DNA from: Lachnospiraceae bacterium
Lineage (GTDB): Bacteria > Bacillota > Clostridia > Lachnospirales > Lachnospiraceae
Reading direction: 5' to 3'
NCBI GenBank assembly: GCA_017438305.1
Contig: JAFRVX010000083.1
Span: forward strand, 1 to 34,799
Length of the DNA: 34,799 bases
The notes under the pieces: generated by a model
The model's input: only the letters and a program-made list of their open reading frames with translations
What the model was told of the DNA's origin: nothing
Databases searched by the model: none
Translations under genes and position numbers: made by a program
In this document: positions 6,527 through 25,500 of the stretch, piece after piece
How positions within the stretch are numbered: the first letter of the stretch is position 1
Layout: each line of letters starts with the position of its first letter

Positions 6527-7600
6527 TCAGTAAAACCTTCTGATAACCACCGGTTCTCCGCAGTAATTATAAACACTGATGGAGACGCAGCCGATGGACT
6601 GAGAGGCATGGAGGATCTTATTGTCGCCGATATAGATGGCCACGTGATCCACACCGCGCCCGTGAGAATTATAAAAAAACAGATCTCCGGGGACCGCATC
6701 ATAGAAGCTTCCCACCAGGGCTCCCCGTTGGGACTGTTCTATGGAAAGCCGGGGAAGGCTGACCCCCGCCTGTCTCATGCAGGCCAGGGAAAAGTAAGAG
6801 CAGTCCAGGCCGGCCATGCTGTTGCCGCCGAATACATAGGGTGTTCCCAGATACTGCATGCCCCATTCGATGACATTTTTGGCGGGTCCCTGGATGTTGT
6901 CCATCTGGCTCCAGTTTTCCGCCTCCGGCACGGTAAAGCCGGCGCGGCAGTACTCCTCGGCTATATAGCCTTCTTCGGAACCGATGGTGATCCTGAACCA
7001 CCCGTCCGCCTTGCCGACGATACGGTAATACTGTCCCTGGCGGATCCGGGTAAGGATGCCCGCTTCCATGGAGGGCTCCATCCGAACGTTCAGGGCAGCG
7101 GAGTCTACGGTGACCCAGTAGTTCTCATACTGCATGCACTGCCTTATGGCATCTTCGCCGGTCTTTACCAGGGGCTGGTAGACGTAGCCCTCCAGGCCGC
7201 CCGAAGATACCCGGTACCAGCCGTCGTCCCGTACCTCCAGGATCTCCATCCCGGTATTGGAATAAAAACGGCCGACGATATTTCCGGTGGCGGTGGAAGG
7301 CTTGTCCCGGAGATTTCCGATGCGGATCTCGTCCGAGATCAGTCCGAAGTTCGTATAAAACTTAAGCTCCAGCTCCGGAGAAAAGGGTTCCTCCTCCAGG
7401 GTGGGGATGGTGGCCTTCTCCGGTTCGGGGATGGTCACTGCCCGGGAAGTCTCCTCAGCTTCTGTTGTCGGTTCTGTCTCGGAGATCTCCTGAAAGACCA
7501 GGGTCTCCACCGGAGAAGCTGCGCTTCCGCAGGATATCAGTCCCTGCAGGAGGGCTCCCGTAAGAAGCAGCGCTCCAGCTTTTTTCCAAATTTTCATCAT
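6527..7600 (-). CDS. SH3-domain NlpC/P60 lipoprotein, putative cell-wall hydrolase
   Basis: 357 residues. A signal peptide ends in the lipobox LISC with lipidated Cys24. A Thr/Glu linker and two bacterial SH3-like domains (about 95-150 and 165-220) precede a C-terminal NlpC/P60 cysteine peptidase. Its catalytic triad is visible: Cys in LDCSYF (about 266), His in DHVAIYIG (about 317) and His in ILHASQS. P60 enzymes cleave D-Glu-meso-DAP bonds in peptidoglycan stem peptides. The start codon overlaps the stop of the branching-enzyme gene (ATGA). Its modifying enzyme Lgt is encoded two genes upstream in the same run. Confidence 0.92.
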   Translation of the reverse strand: MMKIWKKAGALLLTGALLQGLISCGSAASPVETLVFQEISETEPTTEAEETSRAVTIPEPEKATIPTLEEEPFSPELELKFYTNFGLISDEIRIGNLRDKPSTATGNIVGRFYSNTGMEILEVRDDGWYRVSSGGLEGYVYQPLVKTGEDAIRQCMQYENYWVTVDSAALNVRMEPSMEAGILTRIRQGQYYRIVGKADGWFRITIGSEEGYIAEEYCRAGFTVPEAENWSQMDNIQGPAKNVIEWGMQYLGTPYVFGGNSMAGLDCSYFSLACMRQAGVSLPRLSIEQSQRGALVGSFYDAVPGDLFFYNSHGRGVDHVAIYIGDNKILHASQSIGCVSISVYNYCGEPVVIRRFY

Positions 7601-15462: not shown

Positions 15463-16002
15463 ATGGAATACAAGATCACCGGAAATCACATGTTCGTTTC
15501 TGAAGATGTGAGAGACTATATACAGAAAAGGTTCTCGAAATTCGAGAAGTTTTTCAAAGAGGACACCGATTTTATTTTCACCCTCTCCCGGGTCAGGGAT
15601 ACCAAGAAGGTTGAGATAACCATCCCGGCCAGGGGAACCACCATCCGGGCGGAAGAATCCAACATCGATCTGTATGCTGCCATCGACCTGCTGCAGGAGG
15701 TCGTGGAACGCCAGATCCAGAAATACCGCAGAAAAGTGATCGACCGCCATCAGAATGCGCCTTCAGCATCTTCTTTATTTACGGATAATCAAAGCGACTG
15801 GGATGTCGAAGAAGATGATGAAATAAAGATCGTGAAATCCAAAAGATTCGCGATCAAACCGATGGATCCGGAAGAAGCCTGTTTCCAGATGGATATGCTG
15901 GGACACAATTTCTATGTGTTTTATAACTCTGAGACCGATCTCGTCAGCGTTGTCTACAAGAGAAAAGACGGCTACTACGGACTCATCGAACCTGAGTATT
16001 AA
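15463..16002 (+). CDS. hpf: Ribosome hibernation-promoting factor, long form
   Basis: 179 residues starting MEYKITGNHMFVSEDVRDYI. The start is supported by AAAGGAG 9 bp upstream; the frame is open further 5' but lacks homology. The N-terminal domain (1-100) has the HPF/YfiA fold and binds the 30S decoding region. After an acidic linker, the C-terminal dimerisation domain (about 118-179: KSKRFAIKPMDPEEACFQMD...YKRKDGYYGLIEP) marks it as the long form that joins ribosomes into 100S dimers in stationary phase. It is monocistronic with its own promoter and terminator. Confidence 0.97.
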   Translation: MEYKITGNHMFVSEDVRDYIQKRFSKFEKFFKEDTDFIFTLSRVRDTKKVEITIPARGTTIRAEESNIDLYAAIDLLQEVVERQIQKYRRKVIDRHQNAPSASSLFTDNQSDWDVEEDDEIKIVKSKRFAIKPMDPEEACFQMDMLGHNFYVFYNSETDLVSVVYKRKDGYYGLIEPEY

Positions 16003-16027
16003 CGTTCTGCAAGTATTCAGTTAAACG

Positions 16028-16062
16028 GAAGGCGGGGGCAAAACCCCCGCCTTCTTCTTTTT
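16028..16062 (+). terminator. Rho-independent terminator of hpf
   Basis: Perfect 11-bp GC-rich stem GAAGGCGGGGG/CCCCCGCCTTC (16028-16038 with 16044-16054), 5-nt loop, then TTCTTTTT. It could also stop weakly the convergent transcript from 16249. Confidence 0.9.
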
Positions 16063-16167
16063 GTGCAAGAAGCTTATTCTTTTGAAAAACGGTCTTTATT
16101 TTTCTTCGTTTCTCTTTTGTTTATTTCTCTCTTGCTTCTCTTATGTCTGTTTCTGTTTGTCTTTTCT

Positions 16168-16199
16168 ACGGCTTCCCGTAAAAAGAAGCCGTTTTTTTT
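16168..16199 (+). terminator. Second plus-strand terminator
   Basis: Stem ACGGCTTC/GAAGCCGT (16168-16175 with 16185-16192) followed by an eight-T run on the plus strand. It may be a back-up terminator for hpf or may end a short plus-strand RNA from the T-rich stretch before it. Confidence 0.65.
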
Positions 16200-16248
16200 G
16201 CCGTACTGCTCTATTCTTCCGGCGGCACAATTCTTTTTTAAGCTTCGG

Positions 16249-17763
16249 TCACTGCTGTTTCGACGGCATATCTTCGCTGCGGTAGCAGATCGCCCCCAAG
16301 ACGTTCATCGTATTCACGTCACCTATGGCTTCAAGATTATTGATAAAGATAATATCGTCGATCTCTTCCGTCTGGGCGAGGTCGATAATGCTTTCCTTGT
16401 AGCCGCGGTAATCCACTACTACGACCTTATCATAGTAGTCGGCCAGGAAAGGAATGAAGGTATTTCCGAAGGATTCCTTTACCACCATTACGGAACGTCC
16501 GGTGCCCAGTTTGGGATTCCGGATGTATTCGATGGGATTGTCGCCGTAGATGAAGGCCTGGTATTTCTGGGTGGGCTTCAGTTCGGAAAGGTCCCGGACG
16601 ATCTTTCCCTGACGCCATCTCGCCTGCATCACGTCATAAAATTCGAAGTCGTTGGTGGTGATGGGTTCATAGGCGTAGATCGTATCCGGATTATCCATCA
16701 GCTGGGTAAAGCCGCTGGAAGAATAATAGGATCCCAGGAAGTTCTCCATCGTGATCATTTTGTAATCCGAAAGGGGATGCAGATCCCAGCCCTTCTCTTC
16801 CAGGAATTTCTCCAGAGTATAGTAGGCGCCCAGCTGGGTCCAGTGATGATCCGTTTTGAAATACAGGTATTCATCCCTGTGTTCCAGAAGTTTGTCCAGG
16901 ATCGGGATGCATGTCACCTTGTCATTCAGAGACAGAATGTAGTTGGAGAAATAACTGATCACCTTATGCTCGTCGGAAAGCTTCCACTCTTTCCGGGTCT
17001 CTTCATCCAGCATGACCGCGGAATTGTTCGGGACCAGGATATTATAGACGTTCACGTCAGGAAGCAGTGTCTGGGTCCTGGCCACGTTCTCTCCGTAGAT
17101 ATTGGCGGCTTTCAGGTTAAAGCCGTACACGCAGTAACCCACCAGGTCCTTGACGTTGACGCTGCCGGCCTCCTGGGGGTTCATATTGGTGAGTTCCTGC
17201 CCGTCCACGACTTCTGTAGAAGTCTCCGCCGTAGGTTCCGCTGCCGTTTCCGACTGAGATTCAGTCCCGGAGGGTGTGCTCTCTTCCGGGTTCTTTGAAG
17301 GATCAGCGGATTCCGCCGTTTCAGAACCGTCCGGAGTCTTATCCTCTGCAGAGTCCGTTCCGCCGGGCGTCACACTTTCCTGCCCCGGATCCGGAGAATC
17401 CTTTGACGGCATCGGGAAATCCGGGATATCGTCGCCTTCAGCCACGTGTTCCGCCGCATCCCGCTGCAGGCCGTAAACGGTCTTGATGATCTGTTCGTTT
17501 TCCAGAAGGTCATCCCGGAAGGGGTAGGTATCGGCATACCAGAGGCTGATCTGGTCTGTATAGCTGCCGCTTAAGAGCGATGTCACGGAAAACTCGGGAA
17601 ATGTCTCCAGATCCCTTTTTTCAAAATCCGATACCGACGGCCGCAGAAAGAGCAGAAAGCCCAGGACCGAGCCGCCCAGCATCAGTATCGAGAAGAGCAT
17701 GATGGTTATCAGATGATAGGTTCCCTTCTGCTCGTTGATTTTCATCTGTTTTTCAATATTCAT
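16249..17763 (-). CDS. DHHW/AlgX-like protein, partner of the MBOAT acyltransferase
   Basis: 504 residues. One N-terminal membrane anchor (about 16-40), an extracytoplasmic domain beginning FEKRDLETFPEF, a Ser/Thr/Pro/Glu-rich spacer (about 113-190), and an SGNH/AlgX-like domain with KTDHHWTQLGAYYTLE (about 300-316) and VVKESFGNTFIPFL. The DHHW motif names a Pfam family typical of Firmicutes. Such proteins work with AlgI/DltB-type MBOAT proteins to O-acylate exported polymers. It lies 9 bp after the MBOAT gene. The spacer is longer than needed and compositionally biased. Confidence 0.88.
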   Translation of the reverse strand: MNIEKQMKINEQKGTYHLITIMLFSILMLGGSVLGFLLFLRPSVSDFEKRDLETFPEFSVTSLLSGSYTDQISLWYADTYPFRDDLLENEQIIKTVYGLQRDAAEHVAEGDDIPDFPMPSKDSPDPGQESVTPGGTDSAEDKTPDGSETAESADPSKNPEESTPSGTESQSETAAEPTAETSTEVVDGQELTNMNPQEAGSVNVKDLVGYCVYGFNLKAANIYGENVARTQTLLPDVNVYNILVPNNSAVMLDEETRKEWKLSDEHKVISYFSNYILSLNDKVTCIPILDKLLEHRDEYLYFKTDHHWTQLGAYYTLEKFLEEKGWDLHPLSDYKMITMENFLGSYYSSSGFTQLMDNPDTIYAYEPITTNDFEFYDVMQARWRQGKIVRDLSELKPTQKYQAFIYGDNPIEYIRNPKLGTGRSVMVVKESFGNTFIPFLADYYDKVVVVDYRGYKESIIDLAQTEEIDDIIFINNLEAIGDVNTMNVLGAICYRSEDMPSKQQ

Positions 17764-17772
17764 ATCCGCCTC

Positions 17773-19212
17773 TTAAAACCTGAAATACAGGAAAGGATTA
17801 TAGCTGTTGCCAACCAGGGCCAGTACGGAAAGAATAAGCAGCACCGCCGGCGTGATCATATCGGTCAGTCCGGTCACATGCAGGAAGAATCCGCCTTTTC
17901 TCTGAGCCCTCTTCATCATGGCTTCCCGGATCCTGTGGCCCAGGGGGAAGCAGGCCAGGAGCGCTGCAGCCAGGAAGAACAGGTTATTCAGCGCTACAGA
18001 CTGGGTCTCCAGGGAATACAGGGCGTGTCCCTGCATAAACAGGCCCTTCACCACCTCTATAAGCGCTTTCGTATCGGTAAACCTGAACAGCACCCATCCA
18101 AAGTAGACAACGATCAGGGTGTAAAGGTGACCGATAAAACGGGAAAAACCGTTTTTTTCCAGAAGTTTTCCCAGAAACAGCCGTTCCAGCGTCAGGAAGA
18201 CAAAGAAATACAGGCCCCAGAGGATGAAGTTCCATGAAGCGCCGTGCCACATGCCGGTAAGGGCCCAGACGATGAACATGTTGAAGATCGTTCTGGCGCT
18301 GCCCCGCCGGCTCCCGCCGAGGGGAATATAGACGTAATCCCTGAAGAAGGAAGACAGAGAGATATGCCATTTGCGCCAGAATCCCTGGACGGTATGGGCT
18401 TCATAAGGATAATCAAAGTTCTCCAGGTAATGGAAGCCCACCATACGGCCCATGCCGATAGCCATATCCGAGTAGGCGGAAAAGTCCAGATAGATCTGCA
18501 GCATATAAGCTGCCATGCCGAGCCACATGGAAAGGGTGGAAGCTTTAGCCAGTATCTCCAGATTTTCCGGCACCAGCTTGTCCGCCACTGCCGCGCAGCC
18601 GTTTGCCAGGATCGCTTTCTTGGCAAGCCCCACCGCAAAACGGCGGACGCCGTATGCCACATCATCCAGACGGACTTCCCGTTCCTCGATCTCTTCGGCC
18701 ACGGTCTTGTACCGGACGATAGGACCGGCGATGCACTGATGGAACAGCGACGCATACAGGAGCACCTTCCAGTATTTCTTCTGATATGAAACCTCGCCCC
18801 GGTAAACGTCGATCACGTAGGATACCAGCTGGAAGGTGTAGAAGGAAATGCCGATGGGCAGGACGATCTCCGGAATGAAGTCAGGCCATCCGGTAAACCA
18901 TTTGATATTTGTCAGGATAAAAGTGAGATATTTAAAAACGACAAGAAGGCCGAACATGGAGACGAGCTCCATGATCAGCCAGCGTTTTTTCATTTTAGAG
19001 AATTGGGTCTCACCGATCTTCCCGGCGGTGAACCAGCTCAGGAAGGCCTCCAGAAGCAGCAGGATCAGATACAGCGGTCCTCCGAAGGCGTAGAAGATCA
19101 GTGAAAAGATCAGCAGCAGAATATTTCTGGCTTTGGTCTTTCTGAGCAGCAGATAAATAAGCATCTGCGGCACCAGAAAGGCAAAGATGAAGAGCAGACT
19201 TGAAAAGACCAT
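17773..19212 (-). CDS. MBOAT family O-acyltransferase (AlgI/DltB-like)
   Basis: 479 residues, about ten hydrophobic spans. MBOAT features are VLPIGISFYTFQLVSYVID (about 120-140), FWRKWHISLSSFFRDYVYIP (about 273-295) and the catalytic-histidine region GMWHGASWNFILWG (about 318-330). These proteins carry an acyl group across the membrane to acetylate or alanylate surface polymers. The DHHW partner next door fits polysaccharide or peptidoglycan O-acetylation rather than D-alanylation, since no dltA/C/D is present. It follows the second P60 gene by 28 bp with an AAAGGGG ribosome-binding site. Confidence 0.92.
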   Translation of the reverse strand: MVFSSLLFIFAFLVPQMLIYLLLRKTKARNILLLIFSLIFYAFGGPLYLILLLLEAFLSWFTAGKIGETQFSKMKKRWLIMELVSMFGLLVVFKYLTFILTNIKWFTGWPDFIPEIVLPIGISFYTFQLVSYVIDVYRGEVSYQKKYWKVLLYASLFHQCIAGPIVRYKTVAEEIEEREVRLDDVAYGVRRFAVGLAKKAILANGCAAVADKLVPENLEILAKASTLSMWLGMAAYMLQIYLDFSAYSDMAIGMGRMVGFHYLENFDYPYEAHTVQGFWRKWHISLSSFFRDYVYIPLGGSRRGSARTIFNMFIVWALTGMWHGASWNFILWGLYFFVFLTLERLFLGKLLEKNGFSRFIGHLYTLIVVYFGWVLFRFTDTKALIEVVKGLFMQGHALYSLETQSVALNNLFFLAAALLACFPLGHRIREAMMKRAQRKGGFFLHVTGLTDMITPAVLLILSVLALVGNSYNPFLYFRF

Positions 19213-19240
19213 AACAGACCCCTTTTGCGGTATTTTTTTA

Positions 19241-20569
19241 TCAGTACATTCTTCTTACAGCGATAACCCTGGCAGGATCCATGGTTCCGAAGGATACATA
19301 CTGACCGGGATTCGGCGCGTGAACGATTACCCCGTTCCCATAGTATATCGCAACATGGCCGTTATAGCAAACCATATCTCCGGGAAGAATGTTTTCCAGA
19401 GACACCGGCCGGCCCATACTTCTTAAAGTGGTGGAATCATAAGCGTGCACATTGGCCCCCGCCTGGTCGATCAGGCCGAAATGGGCGTATACCTGTCCGC
19501 AGAAACCGCTGCAGTCCGCTCCGTACTGGAGGCTGGCGCCGCCCCACACATAGGGGACCTTGTTGATGAACTGCGCAGCGTAATTGGGGATCTGGTAGGT
19601 CAGGGACGACTCATAGGCCTTCTTGGCAGCCTCCGCCTCTTCACGCTTGCGCTTCTCTTCTCGTTCAGCAGCTTCCCTGGCTTCCCGGGCCTTGCGTTCC
19701 GCCTCTTCCACCATCTGTTTGTTAAATTCATCGTAAGAGGTATCCGACTCATGGGACAGCCGCTCACGGTTCAGTTCCACGGCCCAGATCTGCTGGCGGA
19801 TGATGGTGGAGGTGTCGGAAAGACCGTACTGGTCGCAGATATCGGACAGATACCGGTAATTCTCCAGTGCATAGACCAGCACCGTATACATGCCGAGATA
19901 GGATCCGGCTTCTTCTTCCCGCTTGAAATCTCCCTGCAGCACATAATTCGCCTGCTGGGCATATTCATCAAATTTCTGACGGACATCATCCGGAAGGGTC
20001 TCGATGTCATCCGCGGTCTTCACCTTTTCGGGAAACGGCGTATTGTCCCGGGATTCCTCATGATACATCTGCTTGAAGGCTTCGGCCTCCTCGCCGAACA
20101 CCACGTATTTGCCCATGATGTAGCCTTCAGTCTCGCCGATGGCCACCTTATACCACAGGGCGCTGTTGGTAAGCCTTTCCCCGATGACCCAGATCTCCAT
20201 GCCCCGGAATTCCTGAGCCACGACCTCAGACAGCATCGTGGAGGATGCACGCACATTGTGGGCAGCTTCTACCGCCACCACGCCTATGACGCGTTTTTCA
20301 TAGGTCGTCTCAATATCCTCTTCGGGAGCATCGGAACCGTTCTCGTTCCGGTACTCGTCGGCATGCTCCTTGATGGGCTGCAGGGTCTTCATGAGCCGCT
20401 CCGCAGCGTCGGGATTGCTTTCAAAAAAAAGCTTGAGGGCCAGGGAGGCGCCTCCGAAGGCGGTTTTCTGATCAATGGAATCAAAAGAAGCCGCCCGGGC
20501 GGTTTTTCCACCCAGGACGGCTAAAACACTCAATGTAAGCCAAACAAAGACTGTCAAAAATTTTTTCAT
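19241..20569 (-). CDS. Secreted SH3-NlpC/P60 cell-wall hydrolase (second paralogue)
   Basis: 442 residues. Signal peptide (residues 1-26, ending ARAAS), a short conserved block FDSIDQKTAFGGASLALK shared with the next gene upstream, an SH3-like domain (about 95-155), helical regions including a basic/acidic coiled coil (about 285-320), and a C-terminal NlpC/P60 domain. The triad is Cys in ADCSGF, His in GHVAIYYG and His in VIVHAPN. No lipobox, so probably secreted. It follows its larger paralogue by 35 bp; a small hairpin (20585-20601) separates them. Confidence 0.93.
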   Translation of the reverse strand: MKKFLTVFVWLTLSVLAVLGGKTARAASFDSIDQKTAFGGASLALKLFFESNPDAAERLMKTLQPIKEHADEYRNENGSDAPEEDIETTYEKRVIGVVAVEAAHNVRASSTMLSEVVAQEFRGMEIWVIGERLTNSALWYKVAIGETEGYIMGKYVVFGEEAEAFKQMYHEESRDNTPFPEKVKTADDIETLPDDVRQKFDEYAQQANYVLQGDFKREEEAGSYLGMYTVLVYALENYRYLSDICDQYGLSDTSTIIRQQIWAVELNRERLSHESDTSYDEFNKQMVEEAERKAREAREAAEREEKRKREEAEAAKKAYESSLTYQIPNYAAQFINKVPYVWGGASLQYGADCSGFCGQVYAHFGLIDQAGANVHAYDSTTLRSMGRPVSLENILPGDMVCYNGHVAIYYGNGVIVHAPNPGQYVSFGTMDPARVIAVRRMY

Positions 20570-20584
20570 AGACGAAACTTACCG

Positions 20585-20601
20585 GAAACCCTTCGGGTTT
20601 C
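20585..20601 (-). other. Intercistronic hairpin between the two P60 genes
   Basis: Perfect 7-bp inverted repeat GAAACCC/GGGTTTC with a 3-nt loop, lying between the stop of the first P60 gene and the start of the second. No T tract follows, so RNA processing or stabilisation is more likely than termination. Confidence 0.5.
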
Positions 20602-20604
20602 TTA

Positions 20605-22536
20605 TCAGTAAACTCTCCTTATCGTAATGATCCTGTCATAATTGACGTAACCGATCTCTGCTCTTCTGCCGGCCATGGGCTCATGGATGACTCTGGCGTT
20701 TCCGACGGCATCCACGCCCCAGAACAGGGCTACATGGCCTTCATAGCAGATCAGATCGCCCGGCTGCATTTCATTGACCGAAACCGCTCTTCCGAGGTTT
20801 CTCATGGAGCCGGAAAAATAATTGCCGTGATTGGCAGCCCAAGCCTGGGACACGATCCCGAACTGGGCGTAAATATTCGCAGCGAAGCCGGAACAGTCAC
20901 ATCCGCTTGTAAGGCTGGCGCCGCCCCAGACGTAAGGAAGAACGCCTACATAGGGTTCTGCAGCAGCCACGATGGCCAGGCCGGTGGGGTTATAAGCAAT
21001 ACCCTCTTTCCTGGGCGGTACGGCGCTCTGGTTTGCACACAGGGCGGCCAGCTCTGCCTGACTGGCAGCGGACTGAGCCTGATCCTGGGCAGCCTGTTCT
21101 GCGGCTTTGGCTTCCGCAGCCTGCCTTTCCGCTTCTGCAGCTTCCTGCTGGAGCCGTTCCGCTTCAGCCTTGGCAGCCGCTTCTTCTTCGGCTTTCTTCC
21201 GGGCTTCTTCTTCCGCTTTCTGCGCAGCTTCCTGATCCGCCTGTTCCTGCTGCTGACGTTTCGCTTCCTCATCAGCGGCTTTTCTGTCCTCTTCGGCCTT
21301 CAGCCTTGCGGCTTCTGCCTCTTCGGCGGCTTTCCTCTGGCGCTCCGCTTCTTCCTCCCGGGCCAGCCAGTCAGCTTCCGCCTTCTGCCTTGCGGCTTCG
21401 GCTTCTTCAGCTTCCCTGGCGATGCGGGCATTTTCTTCATCAACCTTTGCCTGGGCTTCCGCATGAAGCTGGGCAAAAAGATCATTTTCCGACTGTCCGC
21501 TCTTCTCGCTTAAGGAGGCCCTGGTGCTGTTGACCACATTCAGCGCGTATACCGCTTCGGCATGGGTAGCATCCAGGCCTTTCTCAGAGGCGATGTCAAT
21601 GATGTTCTGCAGCGTATCACAGACGTAGACCACTGTGGAGAACATCTGAAGGATATTGTTTTCATTTTCAAGGGCGGTATAATGATCTCCCAGACAGAAC
21701 CGGATCTCTCCCGCATAGAATTCCAGCCGCTCGGCAATGTCCGCGGAGACCGCCGCAAGATCCCGGGCGGGGATCGCAAAAGCTGAGGGAAGCACCGGCT
21801 CGTAAGCTGCCTGGGTTTCCTCTGAAGAAGTTTCAGGCGCTGCCGTTTCGCTTTCCGACGGCGCTGCCCCGTTTTCAGGTGCTGCCGTGGTTTCCGCTTC
21901 GGCTGCTGTGACAGCGGCCTCGGTTTCATCAGGCCTTTCGGTTTCAGCTGAAGTTTCTGCGGCTGTCGTTTCGGGAAGAGAAGATGTCACGGCTTCTGCC
22001 GTCTCCGCTCCTCTCCCGGCTGAAACGGAAATCTTAACAGCTTCATCTTTATCCGCTGTTTTCGATTTTTCATCTTTCAGTTCGATATAATCCGCCAGCG
22101 CATAGCCGGTCTCGCCGTAAACGTTGACCTTATACCATTTTTTACCGCCGGTGGTACGTTCGCCGATGATGTCCAATTCAAACTGATCGGGGGTTACGGC
22201 AACCACATCCGCCATGGTGGTGGGCTGTTCCCGGATCCTCAGGGAATAATCCACATGGACCCGGCCGGTCTTTTCTTTATCAAAAAGCACTTCAGCCGCC
22301 TGGTCAGCCGTATTTTTCCCGGGCGCCATGACTTTGATCTCCGAAGAAGGAAGCAGGTTTTTCAGTTTATCCGCAGCATCCTTATTTTCCGCAAGATACC
22401 GGGAAAGGGCAACGGAAGCCCCGGCAACAGCCGTTCTGGAATCCAGCGTATCAAAAGTAAAAGCTTCTGACAGAGATGATCCCAGAAGCATTACACTCAG
22501 CGATAATACGGTTGTGGTCTTCAGCAGTTTTTTCAT
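20605..22536 (-). CDS. Secreted SH3/coiled-coil/NlpC-P60 cell-wall hydrolase (first paralogue)
   Basis: 643 residues. Signal peptide (about 1-25), the block FDTLDSRTAVAGASVALS, an SH3-like domain (about 90-150), a Thr/Glu/Ala-rich linker (about 170-250), a helical region (about 260-350), a long Ala/Glu/Lys/Arg coiled coil (about 355-500) and a C-terminal NlpC/P60 domain. The P60 domain has Cys in CDCSGF, His in GHVALFWG and a third His in VIHEP. Coiled coil plus P60 recalls CwlO-type hydrolases that need FtsEX, though there the coiled coil is N-terminal. Its promoter is near-consensus and flanked by WalR-like boxes. Confidence 0.93.
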   Translation of the reverse strand: MKKLLKTTTVLSLSVMLLGSSLSEAFTFDTLDSRTAVAGASVALSRYLAENKDAADKLKNLLPSSEIKVMAPGKNTADQAAEVLFDKEKTGRVHVDYSLRIREQPTTMADVVAVTPDQFELDIIGERTTGGKKWYKVNVYGETGYALADYIELKDEKSKTADKDEAVKISVSAGRGAETAEAVTSSLPETTAAETSAETERPDETEAAVTAAEAETTAAPENGAAPSESETAAPETSSEETQAAYEPVLPSAFAIPARDLAAVSADIAERLEFYAGEIRFCLGDHYTALENENNILQMFSTVVYVCDTLQNIIDIASEKGLDATHAEAVYALNVVNSTRASLSEKSGQSENDLFAQLHAEAQAKVDEENARIAREAEEAEAARQKAEADWLAREEEAERQRKAAEEAEAARLKAEEDRKAADEEAKRQQQEQADQEAAQKAEEEARKKAEEEAAAKAEAERLQQEAAEAERQAAEAKAAEQAAQDQAQSAASQAELAALCANQSAVPPRKEGIAYNPTGLAIVAAAEPYVGVLPYVWGGASLTSGCDCSGFAANIYAQFGIVSQAWAANHGNYFSGSMRNLGRAVSVNEMQPGDLICYEGHVALFWGVDAVGNARVIHEPMAGRRAEIGYVNYDRIITIRRVY

Positions 22537-22574
22537 AACACCCTTTACGATCTTTACTCAATGGTTGAAAAAAT

Positions 22575-22591
22575 GTTACAAATTTATTACA
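22575..22591 (-). promoter_or_regulatory. WalR-like box at the transcription start
   Basis: Minus strand TGTAAT-AAATT-TGTAAC, a perfect match to TGTWAH-N5-TGTWAH. It begins right at the predicted start of transcription, a position where a bound regulator would more likely repress. Confidence 0.6.
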
Positions 22592-22598
22592 CCCCTGC

Positions 22599-22626
22599 AT
22601 TATATCACATCTTCTGATTTTGTCAA
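22599..22626 (-). promoter_or_regulatory. Sigma-A promoter of the P60/MBOAT/DHHW cluster
   Basis: Minus strand perfect TTGACA (22626-22621) and perfect TATAAT (22604-22599) with a 16-bp spacer. Predicted start near 22592, about 55 nt before the ATG. Confidence 0.8.
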
Positions 22627-22653
22627 CGCTTTTGTAAAATTTAAAACAAGATT

Positions 22654-22670
22654 TTAACAATTCCGTAACA
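22654..22670 (-). promoter_or_regulatory. WalR-like box upstream of the -35
   Basis: Minus strand TGTTAC-GGAAT-TGTTAA, a second perfect TGTWAH-N5-TGTWAH match, about 62-78 bp before the predicted start. A third, weaker half-site TGTTTT follows after another 5 bp, keeping the 11-bp period. Confidence 0.6.
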
Positions 22671-22833
22671 ATTGAGTTCTCTTTTCCATTCTCTTTATTT
22701 TTCCTGACATTTTGTTTGTTTTCTTATTTCCCTGAACCGTTTTCTTCACGATTTCCGAAAGCCCTTGCCGTAAGCCCGGCTCCCGGTTTTCTCTGTAGAC
22801 TGCAGCTTGGTTTTTCCTATGCAGCGTTTCTTC

Positions 22834-22862
22834 TTTACAATGGGACACCCGCATTTTATAAT
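22834..22862 (+). promoter_or_regulatory. Sigma-A promoter of the SDR gene
   Basis: TTTACA (22834-22839), a 17-bp spacer and perfect TATAAT (22857-22862). Predicted start near 22869, giving a leader of about 170 nt that contains the tandem repeats. Confidence 0.65.
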
Positions 22863-22897
22863 GGCCTTAAGCCGTGGCCGGATGCGTACAGCTTCGG

Positions 22898-23016
22898 ATC
22901 TGTCTTTTCGGAAGACATCCGCCCGGTTACAGCCATCTGATTGAATCCTCAGAAAACATCCGCCCGGTTACAGCCGGCAGATCTGTCTCCTCGGAAGACC
23001 TCCGGCCGGACAGCTC
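22898..23016 (+). repeat. Three degenerate 41-bp tandem repeats in the SDR leader
   Basis: The core ACATCCGCCCGGTTACAGCC occurs perfectly at 22915-22934 and 22956-22975. A third, diverged copy (ACCTCCGGCCGGACAGC) starts at 22998. The flanking GATCTGTCT..TCGGAAGAC is shared by copies 1 and 3. Confidence 0.8.
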
Positions 23017-23041
23017 AGGATCAGGGAAAGGAACTGATTTC

Positions 23042-23746
23042 ATGAACCGTAAGATCATTATTACCGGCGCCAGCGGCGGCATCGGCCGGGCGCTTGCAGA
23101 ACAGTTTTACCGGGAAGGGGACCGTCTGATCCTCTGTGCCAATCACCATCCGGAGAATCTGCCGGATCTTCCCGGCGCGGCCCGTTTTGCCGGGGATCTT
23201 TCCGACCTGGAGACCGTCCGCCGCCTCTTCCGGCTGGTCCGGGAAGTTTTCAAAACCCCGGATATCCTGATCAACAATGCCGGCGTGGCGGACTTTTCAC
23301 TTTTTCAGGATTCATCCGATGATAATTATCTGCGGATCCTCCATGCCAACCTGTCCTCCTGCGTCCGCTGCTCCAAGGAAGCTGTAAAGCTGATGCTTCC
23401 CGCAAAACACGGCCGCATCCTGAACATCTCTTCTGTCTGGGGCACTTTCGGCGCCTCCTGCGAAGCGGAATATTCCCTGACCAAAGGCGGCATCAACGCC
23501 CTGACCCGGTCCCTCGCAAAGGAGCTGGCGCCTTCCGGCATCCAGGTCAACGCTCTGTCCTTAGGGGCCATCGATACAGAGATGAATGCGCGCCTCACGG
23601 CTTCCGAGAAAGAAGCCCTGGAGGCCGAGATCCCCGCGGGCAGGATGGGCACCTGTGAAGAGACCGCCGAATTTGTTTCCCTTATTCTGAAAGCCCCGGA
23701 TTATCTGAACGGTGCGGTAATCCCCTTTGACGGGGCCTGGATGTAA
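23042..23746 (+). CDS. Short-chain dehydrogenase/reductase (FabG-like)
   Basis: 234 residues starting MNRKIIITGASGGIG. The nucleotide-binding motif TGASGGIG spans residues 8-15, NNAG 78-81, and the catalytic Ser131, Tyr144 and Lys148 (YSLTK) have the usual spacing. The end (NGAVIPFDGAWM) is typical. It is closest in style to 3-oxoacyl-ACP reductase FabG, but no fatty-acid genes adjoin it, so the substrate is open. The start is chosen for the motif and AAAGGAA 8 bp upstream; the frame is open 5' into the repeats. Monocistronic, plus strand. Confidence 0.9.
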   Translation: MNRKIIITGASGGIGRALAEQFYREGDRLILCANHHPENLPDLPGAARFAGDLSDLETVRRLFRLVREVFKTPDILINNAGVADFSLFQDSSDDNYLRILHANLSSCVRCSKEAVKLMLPAKHGRILNISSVWGTFGASCEAEYSLTKGGINALTRSLAKELAPSGIQVNALSLGAIDTEMNARLTASEKEALEAEIPAGRMGTCEETAEFVSLILKAPDYLNGAVIPFDGAWM

Positions 23747-23791
23747 GACCTGACAGCAGGATCAGAACCACAATGACAGGAGCAGAACGGC

Positions 23792-23843
23792 CGGCAGAAT
23801 AATGTTCTCCGAAAGAACGGCAGAATAATGATCTCCGGAAGAT
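23792..23843 (+). repeat. 26-bp tandem direct repeat after the SDR gene
   Basis: CGGCAGAATAATG.TCTCCG at 23792-23817 and again at 23818-23843, differing at a few bases. Confidence 0.75.
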
Positions 23844-23885
23844 CGGAAAAAGAACGATCATACACAGGAACCGTCTGCAGAAGAA

Positions 23886-23935
23886 AGAGAAGCCGCGGGC
23901 GCTGTTTTATGCCCGACGGCTTCTCTGTTTTTTTT
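23886..23935 (+). terminator. Rho-independent terminator of the SDR gene
   Basis: Stem AGAGAAGCCG (23886-23895) with CGGCTTCTCT (23917-23926), continued by GGGC/GCCC, then a T run to 23935. Confidence 0.9.
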
Positions 23936-24111
23936 CGTTCTGTTTTTTTATTTCATCTCTGCCAGGCTGCTGCGTTGTCGTATTCGGTACAGATCATAAC
24001 TGCAGATATTGTATCCGGTACTTTTCTTTCCGGTACTTTTCCGGCAATATCGGCAGCTCCCTTTATCCGGCAGATTTCCCCGTCAGAGAATATCCAGCCT
24101 CTTCGGCAGGA
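23936..24111. other. Intergenic stretch between converging SDR and glyS genes
   Basis: No gene seen. It holds a short direct repeat TCCGGTACTTTTC at 24014-24026 and 24029-24041 (15-bp period). No convincing minus-strand terminator for glyS is visible. Confidence 0.4.
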
Positions 24112-25500
24112 TCACCACATCAGCTTGTTTCTGAAATAATCCACCAGTTCCTCAACTTTCACCCGCTCCTGCTCCATGGTGTCGCGGTCCCGGACCGTTA
24201 CGCAGCCGTCGTTTTCGGTATCGAAATCATAGGTGACGCACCAGGGCGTACCGATCTCATCCTGTCTTCTGTAGCGCTTTCCAATGGATCCTCTGTCATC
24301 ATATTCGCAGTTGAAATACCGGGAAAGCTCCTGATAAAGGGCTTCCGCCTTATCGTTGAGCTTCTTGGAAAGCGGCAGCACGCCGACCTTGACCGGCGCC
24401 AGGGCCGGATGGAAATGCATCACGGTCCGGACGTCCCCTTCCGCCACTTCTTCTTCATCATAAGCGGCGCAGAGGAAGGCCAGTACCACACGGTCCGCGC
24501 CCAGGGAGGGTTCGACCACGTAGGGAATGAATTTCTCATTGGTGGCTTCATCAAAATAGGTCATATCCTGGCCGGAAGTATTCTGATGCTGGGTCAGGTC
24601 GTAATCGGTCCTGTCCGCGATGCCCCAGAGTTCGCCCCAGCCGAAGGGGAACAGGAATTCCAGGTCCGTGGTGCCCTTGGAGTAAAAGACCAGTTCTTCC
24701 GGATCATGGTCCCGGGCTCTCAGCTCATCGTCCTTCATGCCCAGGGTCTTCAGCCAGTCGATGCAGAACTGGCGCCAGTAGCTGAACCATTCCAGATCGG
24801 TGCCGGGTTTACAGAAGAATTCCAGCTCCATCTGTTCGAATTCACGGGTACGGAAAGTGAAGTTTCCGGGCGTGATCTCGTTCCGGAAGGCCTTGCCCAC
24901 CTGGCCGATGCCGAAGGGCAGTTTTTTCCGGGAAGTCCGCTGCACGTTCTTGAAATTGACAAAGATGCCCTGGGCGGTCTCCGGACGAAGGTAGACCGTG
25001 TTCTTGGCGTCTTCCGTAACGCCCTGGAAGGTTTTGAACATCAGGTTGAACTGGCGGATATCGGTGAAATTGTGGGCGCCGCAGGTCGGACAGGGGATCT
25101 GTTCTTTATCGATGTACGCCTTCATTTCCTCATGAGTCCAGCCGTCCAGCCCTTTTTCGGGAACGATGCCCTTCTCGTTCATATAATCTTCAATAAGTTT
25201 ATCCGCGCGGAAACGTTCCTTGCACTCCTTGCAGTCAAGCAGCGGATCGGAAAAGCCGCCCACATGGCCGGATGCCACCCAGACCTGCGGATTCATCAGG
25301 ATCGCGCAGTCCACGCCTACGTTGTAGGGGGATTCCTGGATAAACTTCTGCCACCAGGCCTTTTTCACGTTATTCTTAAGCTCCACGCCCAGATTGCCGT
25401 AATCCCAGGTATTGGCCAGACCGCCGTAGATTTCGGAGCCCGGGTAGATAAAGCCGCGGGATTTGCAGAGCGCAACGATTTTTTCCATGGATTTTGCCAT
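24112..25500 (-). CDS. glyS: Glycyl-tRNA synthetase, dimeric class II type
   Basis: GlyRS charges tRNA-Gly. The 462 residues start [28 protein letters not shown] and carry class II motifs: motif 2-like [21 protein letters not shown] and motif 3-like [14 protein letters not shown]. The C-terminal anticodon-binding domain is [20 protein letters not shown]...[24 protein letters not shown] zinc-binding insert is suggested by CKECKE and CPTCGAH. This is the single-chain alpha2 form. No T-box antiterminator motif is visible in its leader; a strong hairpin (25524-25570) lies just upstream of the ribosome-binding site. Confidence 0.98.

Follow-up and report, generated by a model that had tools for sequence, protein, structure and literature searches.

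The window, i.e., the whole stretch of 34,799 nt analysed here (contig JAFRVX010000083.1 of the Lachnospiraceae bacterium assembly GCA_017438305.1), carries on its minus strand a cluster of four genes headed by a cell wall hydrolase. This first gene (20605..22536, with its ATG at 22536) codes for a 643 aa protein with an SH3_3 domain (Pfam, 1.9e-7), a coiled-coil-like part and an NlpC/P60 domain (NLPC_P60, 3.5e-12), in agreement with the P60 hydrolase named in the original prediction, and its N-terminus resembles a signal peptide when judged by eye. Behind it come a second NlpC/P60 protein of 442 aa (19241..20569; NLPC_P60, 2e-13), an MBOAT O-acyltransferase (17773..19212; MBOAT, 6e-27) and a DHHW protein (16249..17763; DHHW, 1.2e-82), separated by gaps of 35, 28 and 9 nt respectively. 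This tight packing on one strand speaks for the proposed single operon as far as gene arrangement goes; the cluster contains two terminator-like sites on the minus strand (20516-20494 and 22310-22293 in a terminator scan), both located inside the P60 genes. The MBOAT and DHHW pair (16249-19212) lies directly behind the P60 genes, and DNA similarity over the MBOAT gene was seen in 8 of the 10 congener loci compared. Its placement suggests that a step of wall or surface-polymer O-acylation is coupled to the expression of the hydrolases.

The promoter scan placed a -35 TTGACA at 22626-22621 and a -10 TATAAT with a TG extension at 22604-22599 (both minus strand) in front of the hydrolase gene. With all 12 consensus hexamer positions, a spacer of 16 nt and the TG before the -10, this is the best of the eight promoters found in 16000-24200. 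The -35 hexamer is the same in the 10 congeners compared, and all 10 have TATAAT or TATACT at the -10. On both sides of this promoter there is an exact match on the minus strand to the WalR consensus TGTWAH-N5-TGTWAH. The upstream tandem box TGTTACGGAATTGTTAA (half-sites TGTTAC and TGTTAA around GGAAT) is found at 22670-22654, about -79 to -63, while the start-site box TGTAATAAATTTGTAAC (TGTAAT and TGTAAC around AAATT), our proposed operator, is found at 22591-22575 and begins 7 nt past the -10. With the transcription start placed by its distance to the -10, this box would span about +1 to +17. These are the only two exact sites of the whole window, where 0.04 are expected (mean of 100 shuffles, none of which reached two); resampling the AT-rich intergenic region 22537-22873 alone under a Markov model gave a probability of about 5e-5 for at least two exact boxes. 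The observation of perfect WalR-type boxes flanking the promoter is confirmed and is stronger than originally claimed. A weaker third half-site, TGTTTT, does continue the 11-bp period (TGTTAC-N5-TGTTAA-N5-TGTTTT), as had been noticed, although it lies between that upstream pair and the promoter and not farther upstream. The window has another SH3-NlpC/P60 gene at 6527-7600, flanked by ATP-grasp-like and alpha-amylase-like genes, and no exact box was found at it.

We compared this promoter within the genus in 10 of 15 genomes; in the remaining five (G006, G010, G011, G013 and G014) no ortholog was seen or the promoter fell outside the contigs fetched. Nine of the 10 congeners had a box, on either strand and with no more than one mismatch, in the 90 nt preceding the -35 (chance about 1-9% each), the miss being G003, in which the upstream box is about 190 nt upstream of the -35. 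At the same tolerance, seven of the 10 had a box within 32 nt past the -10 (chance 0.4-7%). Among the other three promoters, a start-site box with two mismatches could be recognised by eye in G007 and none was found in G002 and G005, and these cases count against the explanation that we favour below. The identical start-site 17-mer was found in the same place in G003 and also in G015, a genome from another genus. The prediction had been staked on the boxes being kept in relatives, and the pair is kept: the paired boxes are a conserved feature in which the upstream box varies in its exact location.

Scanned genome-wide without its promoter context, the consensus is only modestly enriched. This genome has 14 matches to the bare TGTWAH-N5-TGTWAH vs. 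five to the pattern read backward, and the 15 congeneric genomes have 124 vs. 86. This control is inflated, with several of its matches overlapping TGTTAC-type sites, the window's own included, and because of this contamination we also used tests based on genes and positions. Among the proteins adjacent to boxes in the genus, SH3_3 was found in seven of the 25 scanned, and others include a MurA-like protein (EPSP_synthase), a glutamine-amidotransferase and unrelated ones. This set covers 42 of the 124 matches, with 25 of 33 references scanned after setting aside five duplicates or near-duplicates and, by choice, L081, L095 and the left gene of L088. Given these partly unrelated neighbours, single boxes elsewhere may be due to chance.

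The box was also searched for together with the -10. The combination TATAMT-N{0,30}-TGTAAY-N5-TGTAAC was found in 111 of 397 Lachnospiraceae-type genomes, compared to 34 of 397 for the same -10 pattern with the box in the opposite orientation (reverse complement) and 17 for the backward-read control. TGTTAC and TGTAAC half-sites being near reverse complements, orientation here means that the TGTAA form is preferred on the coding strand. The box lies 4-18 nt behind the -10 in 107 of 125 distinct sites (0-29 nt overall), a distribution that is not uniform, uniform spacing being the only reference used and the 11-bp period of the half-sites being imposed by the search pattern. This architecture also bears on the idea that the start-site element acts in RNA, as a conserved motif of the 5′ leader setting translation or mRNA decay. 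Such a motif would sit, as this one does, in the presumed transcribed leader and would show a strong preference for one form (the 111 vs. 34 genomes above), but its distance from the -10 varies widely, over those 0-29 nt, and the same consensus is also found upstream of the -35 in nine of 10 congeners, so that we regard an RNA element as very improbable.

The association with hydrolase genes, also predicted, is strong. Pfam searches of the proteins downstream of the -10-plus-box pattern at 27 loci gave SH3_3 in 19, NLPC_P60 in 15, Hydrolase_2 in five and MreB in one (the set comes from 30 loci among 131 listed matches, of which L111, L116 and L120 had no ORF of at least 60 aa within 250 nt). 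In the MreB case (L125) the start-site box precedes an MreB/Mbl gene, and cell-shape genes may share the box regulon. A scan of a named genome collection with TATAATN{4,9}TGTAATAAATTTGTAAC recovered 20 loci: 12 of Lachnospiraceae, five of Petralouisia, Eubacterium, Agathobacter or Blautia, two of Clostridia/Clostridiales and one of an alphaproteobacterial MAG. Blautia wexlerae is one of the carriers of the pattern. SH3_3 was present in 14 and NLPC_P60 in nine of the 19 downstream proteins, L243 having no ORF of at least 60 aa within 250 nt either. When, conversely, SH3-P60 genes were chosen by protein only (30 loci by similarity to one SH3-P60 protein, 29 used, L286 lacking a usable ORF), an exact box was found within 200 nt upstream in 14 of 29 (about 1% in shuffled sequence) and one with a single mismatch or none in 22 of 29 (about 10% in shuffled sequence), leaving seven of these homologous genes with none upstream at that tolerance. 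The remaining 99,865 nt of these loci, which are mostly coding and hence less demanding as a control than other promoters, contained no exact box. The 124 vs. 86 count of the bare consensus could be invoked in favour of mere chance in AT-rich promoter DNA. For the class, chance is contradicted by the conservation of the boxes, by their position and by the genes that they accompany, and it can hardly be taken seriously as an explanation, even if single sites elsewhere may still be accidental.

The regulator is a different matter. The original prediction was WalR control, and its part about consensus boxes and hydrolase targets stood, but the canonical WalR/WalK (YycF/YycG) pair was not found in this assembly, which is 81% complete, so that the genome itself may still have it. 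The best match here to the YycF model is a 198-residue fragment that scores 233 bits against a cut-off of 340; it groups with a paralogue from another gene neighbourhood and is encoded on a possibly misbinned contig. With all candidates scored, the model gave 302-350 bits in 11 of 12 genomes from other families of the order (263 in the twelfth), whereas none of 19 Lachnospiraceae genomes exceeded 278: 17 were at 245-278, this assembly (G000) at 233, and G003 had no match at threshold. No genome out of 150 Lachnospiraceae reached 300 bits (no more than 17 candidates being scored per genome), and the two highest, with 284, are of the paralogue type, ending in the TKWGVGY motif. Considering these scores and the different gene neighbourhood, we did not simply accept a WalR homologue as the regulator in Lachnospiraceae. 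The promoter does not qualify for the canonical WalR regulon, since the regulator, a defining feature of that regulon, is lacking so far as the incomplete genome shows; a WalR-like way of working remains likely. We find the name WalR-type box preferable, the regulator being probably a WalR/MtrA-like paralogue.

The canonical arrangement was seen in the loci L204 and L205, where behind walR come a long kinase, then a small protein and two more proteins, and a MurA-looking start. The kinase of L204 has HAMP and PAS domains (Pfam), and its YycH/YycI were assigned by position, both proteins giving no Pfam hit. On the contig of our assembly that carries the regulator fragment (C135), the kinase has HisKA and HATPase domains and no PAS and is followed by GerMN, instead of a HAMP-PAS WalK followed by YycH/YycI. 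Exact boxes were found just behind walK in L204 (5433), L205 (5112) and L207 (119), and just upstream of walR in L206 (2667), where they could possibly be feedback sites. These boxes at canonical loci of other families, the exact match of ours to the published consensus, the 81% completeness and the limit of 17 candidates per genome in the larger survey all leave some room for a WalRK that is missing from the assembly or overlooked in the family, in which case the promoter would be under ordinary WalR control, like those of Bacillus. Nevertheless, the gap between the 19 Lachnospiraceae and the 12 other genomes, the result in the 150 genomes and a tree that places the Lachnospiraceae proteins among paralogues make it improbable. 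In this tree the Lachnospiraceae proteins and the paralogues from families that bear the canonical pair form one group of 21 rows with an SH-aLRT of 94, just under the level of 95 that is starred; it is a quick tree of 39 rows (a subset of the fetched regulators picked by text pattern, with two long rows) made without bootstraps.

The paralogue belongs to a different operon. The order in Lachnospiraceae is a ComEA-like helix-hairpin-helix protein, the response regulator, a histidine kinase without PAS, a GerMN lipoprotein and ComEC. The regulator-kinase-GerMN order was seen in L052, L208, L214-L217 and others, with Pfam evidence for kinase and GerMN coming from L052 and L208; in the regulator loci the labels ComEA-like (outside L208), MutS2-like, MurA-like start and secreted were judged by eye. 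With response regulator, PAS-less kinase and GerMN lipoprotein in a single operon, the arrangement matches the MtrAB-LpqB system of Actinobacteria, LpqB also carrying a GerMN domain. In the segment that we take to be the DNA-binding helix, the paralogue has mostly RTVDVH[IV]RRLREKIE and canonical WalR mostly RTVDVT[IV]RRLREKIE. The tree includes the paralogue from 12 of the 14 other congeners. G006 gave a partial match, and the copy of G003 is split over contigs, a break that made us reject the absence of the gene from this nearest congener. The only copy in our assembly is the one on C135 (G000:C135, L052 1-4930). This contig is 96.7% identical to G009 over 2,085 nt, compared to 67-82% between the window and G009, and the other congeners' copies of the locus are 68-83% identical to it. 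On this evidence C135 is probably misbinned in this assembly (contamination 5.8%). An exact box was found by the paralogue operon in only one of 12 loci (L219:3794-3810, just upstream of the ComEA-like gene), so that there is little sign of autoregulation, which would be possible in the L219 genome.

We also considered that another regulator of the OmpR/PhoB family could bind the boxes, i.e., the response regulator adjacent to MutS2, one encoded on contig C36, or a Pho regulator of the PhoB/PhoP type. The MutS2-adjacent regulator has a similar helix, RTVDVHIKRIREKI, but no exact box was found at any of its four loci. The C36 regulator, also of the OmpR family, has an exact box upstream of its gene (G000:C36:49276-49292; L054:3277) and might be an autoregulated rival. 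Pho boxes are likewise direct repeats with an 11-bp period, of a TGTNA-type half-site. At the alphaproteobacterial locus mentioned above (L224:2769-2796), a phosphate-selective porin gene is preceded by this combination of promoter and box, which there resembles a Pho box, and a WalR box is thus inseparable by sequence alone from other direct repeats of OmpR/PhoB regulators. Nonetheless, the genes downstream are here mostly wall hydrolases, and that porin excepted, phosphate-uptake, phosphatase and PhoU families were absent among the Pfam families listed for 71 box-adjacent proteins (25 of 43 families listed in the genus set). Some other OmpR/PhoB regulator seems to us a plausible but unlikely binder, and we prefer the ComEA-linked paralogue.

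Comparison with better known systems helps to place the ComEA-linked paralogue and the sign of its putative action. The WalRK (YycFG) regulon of Bacillus subtilis has the identical box consensus and includes both activated and repressed genes: in the excerpt of PMC7299342 used here, phosphorylated WalR represses iseA and activates lytE and cwlO, and the hydrolase circuit is described as a homeostat. The differences are that canonical WalR was not found in Lachnospiraceae and that the start-site boxes suggest repression here, whereas lytE and cwlO are activated there. The WalRK of Clostridioides difficile (walA-walR-walK-truA2), as excerpted from PMC9210968, shares the PAS-less kinase and a lipoprotein in the operon; this lipoprotein is predicted to be a beta-propeller there and is a GerMN protein here, where the neighbours are ComEA-like and ComEC. 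According to the same excerpt, overproduction of WalR represses about 4-fold a C. difficile NlpC/P60 gene that carries two putative WalR sites. What counts against our explanation is that single-gene knock-down or overexpression of members of that gene's regulon gave no phenotype. MtrAB-LpqB has the same grouping of regulator, kinase and lipoprotein and a kinase without intracellular PAS (PMC9210968, excerpt), and in C. glutamicum MtrAB represses nlpC and mepA (PMC9602371, excerpt). It belongs to another phylum, however, and the 198-residue paralogue fragment stays below the MtrA cut-off (215 vs. 300 bits).

On balance, and with slightly more belief than doubt, we favour an explanation in which both boxes are operators of an OmpR/PhoB-family response regulator, the ComEA-linked paralogue, that would control wall hydrolases. 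Both the regulator and the sign of its action are inferred. Under this explanation the phosphorylated regulator would bind the tandem repeats on the first ~20-30 transcribed bases, right after a strong promoter, and would there block initiation. In the genus of the window it would also bind the second box upstream of the -35. A single regulator could then use one site for repression and the other for stimulation or looping, and its control would extend to the second P60, MBOAT and DHHW genes packed closely behind. Taken separately, the binding of the boxes by the ComEA-linked regulator seems likely, and so, to about the same degree, does repression by the start-site box, since an operator downstream of a near perfect -35 and -10 is more in keeping with repression than with activation. 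A modulating role of the upstream box is suggested more weakly, and dual activation and repression, as originally proposed from paired boxes, would be a fair guess from their geometry.

According to PMC9210968 (excerpt), all Firmicutes have WalRK, and we found no report on WalR control in Lachnospiraceae in the open-licence literature, as judged by titles and the starts of abstracts for part of the matches. Against this background we put forward, only tentatively, a wider reading in which Lachnospiraceae would have lost canonical WalRK and the boxes would have passed to the ComEA/ComEC-linked, MtrAB-LpqB-like system, binding over the start of hydrolase genes and repressing them, with a sign opposite to that of the elongation hydrolases of Bacillus. 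This would be a family-wide replacement of the regulator with preservation of the operator. If true, in a dominant gut family the same operator would serve another regulator, with the sign reversed; what makes WalRK essential could then be tested by comparison, and a single promoter pattern would allow a hydrolase regulon to be read from gut genomes.
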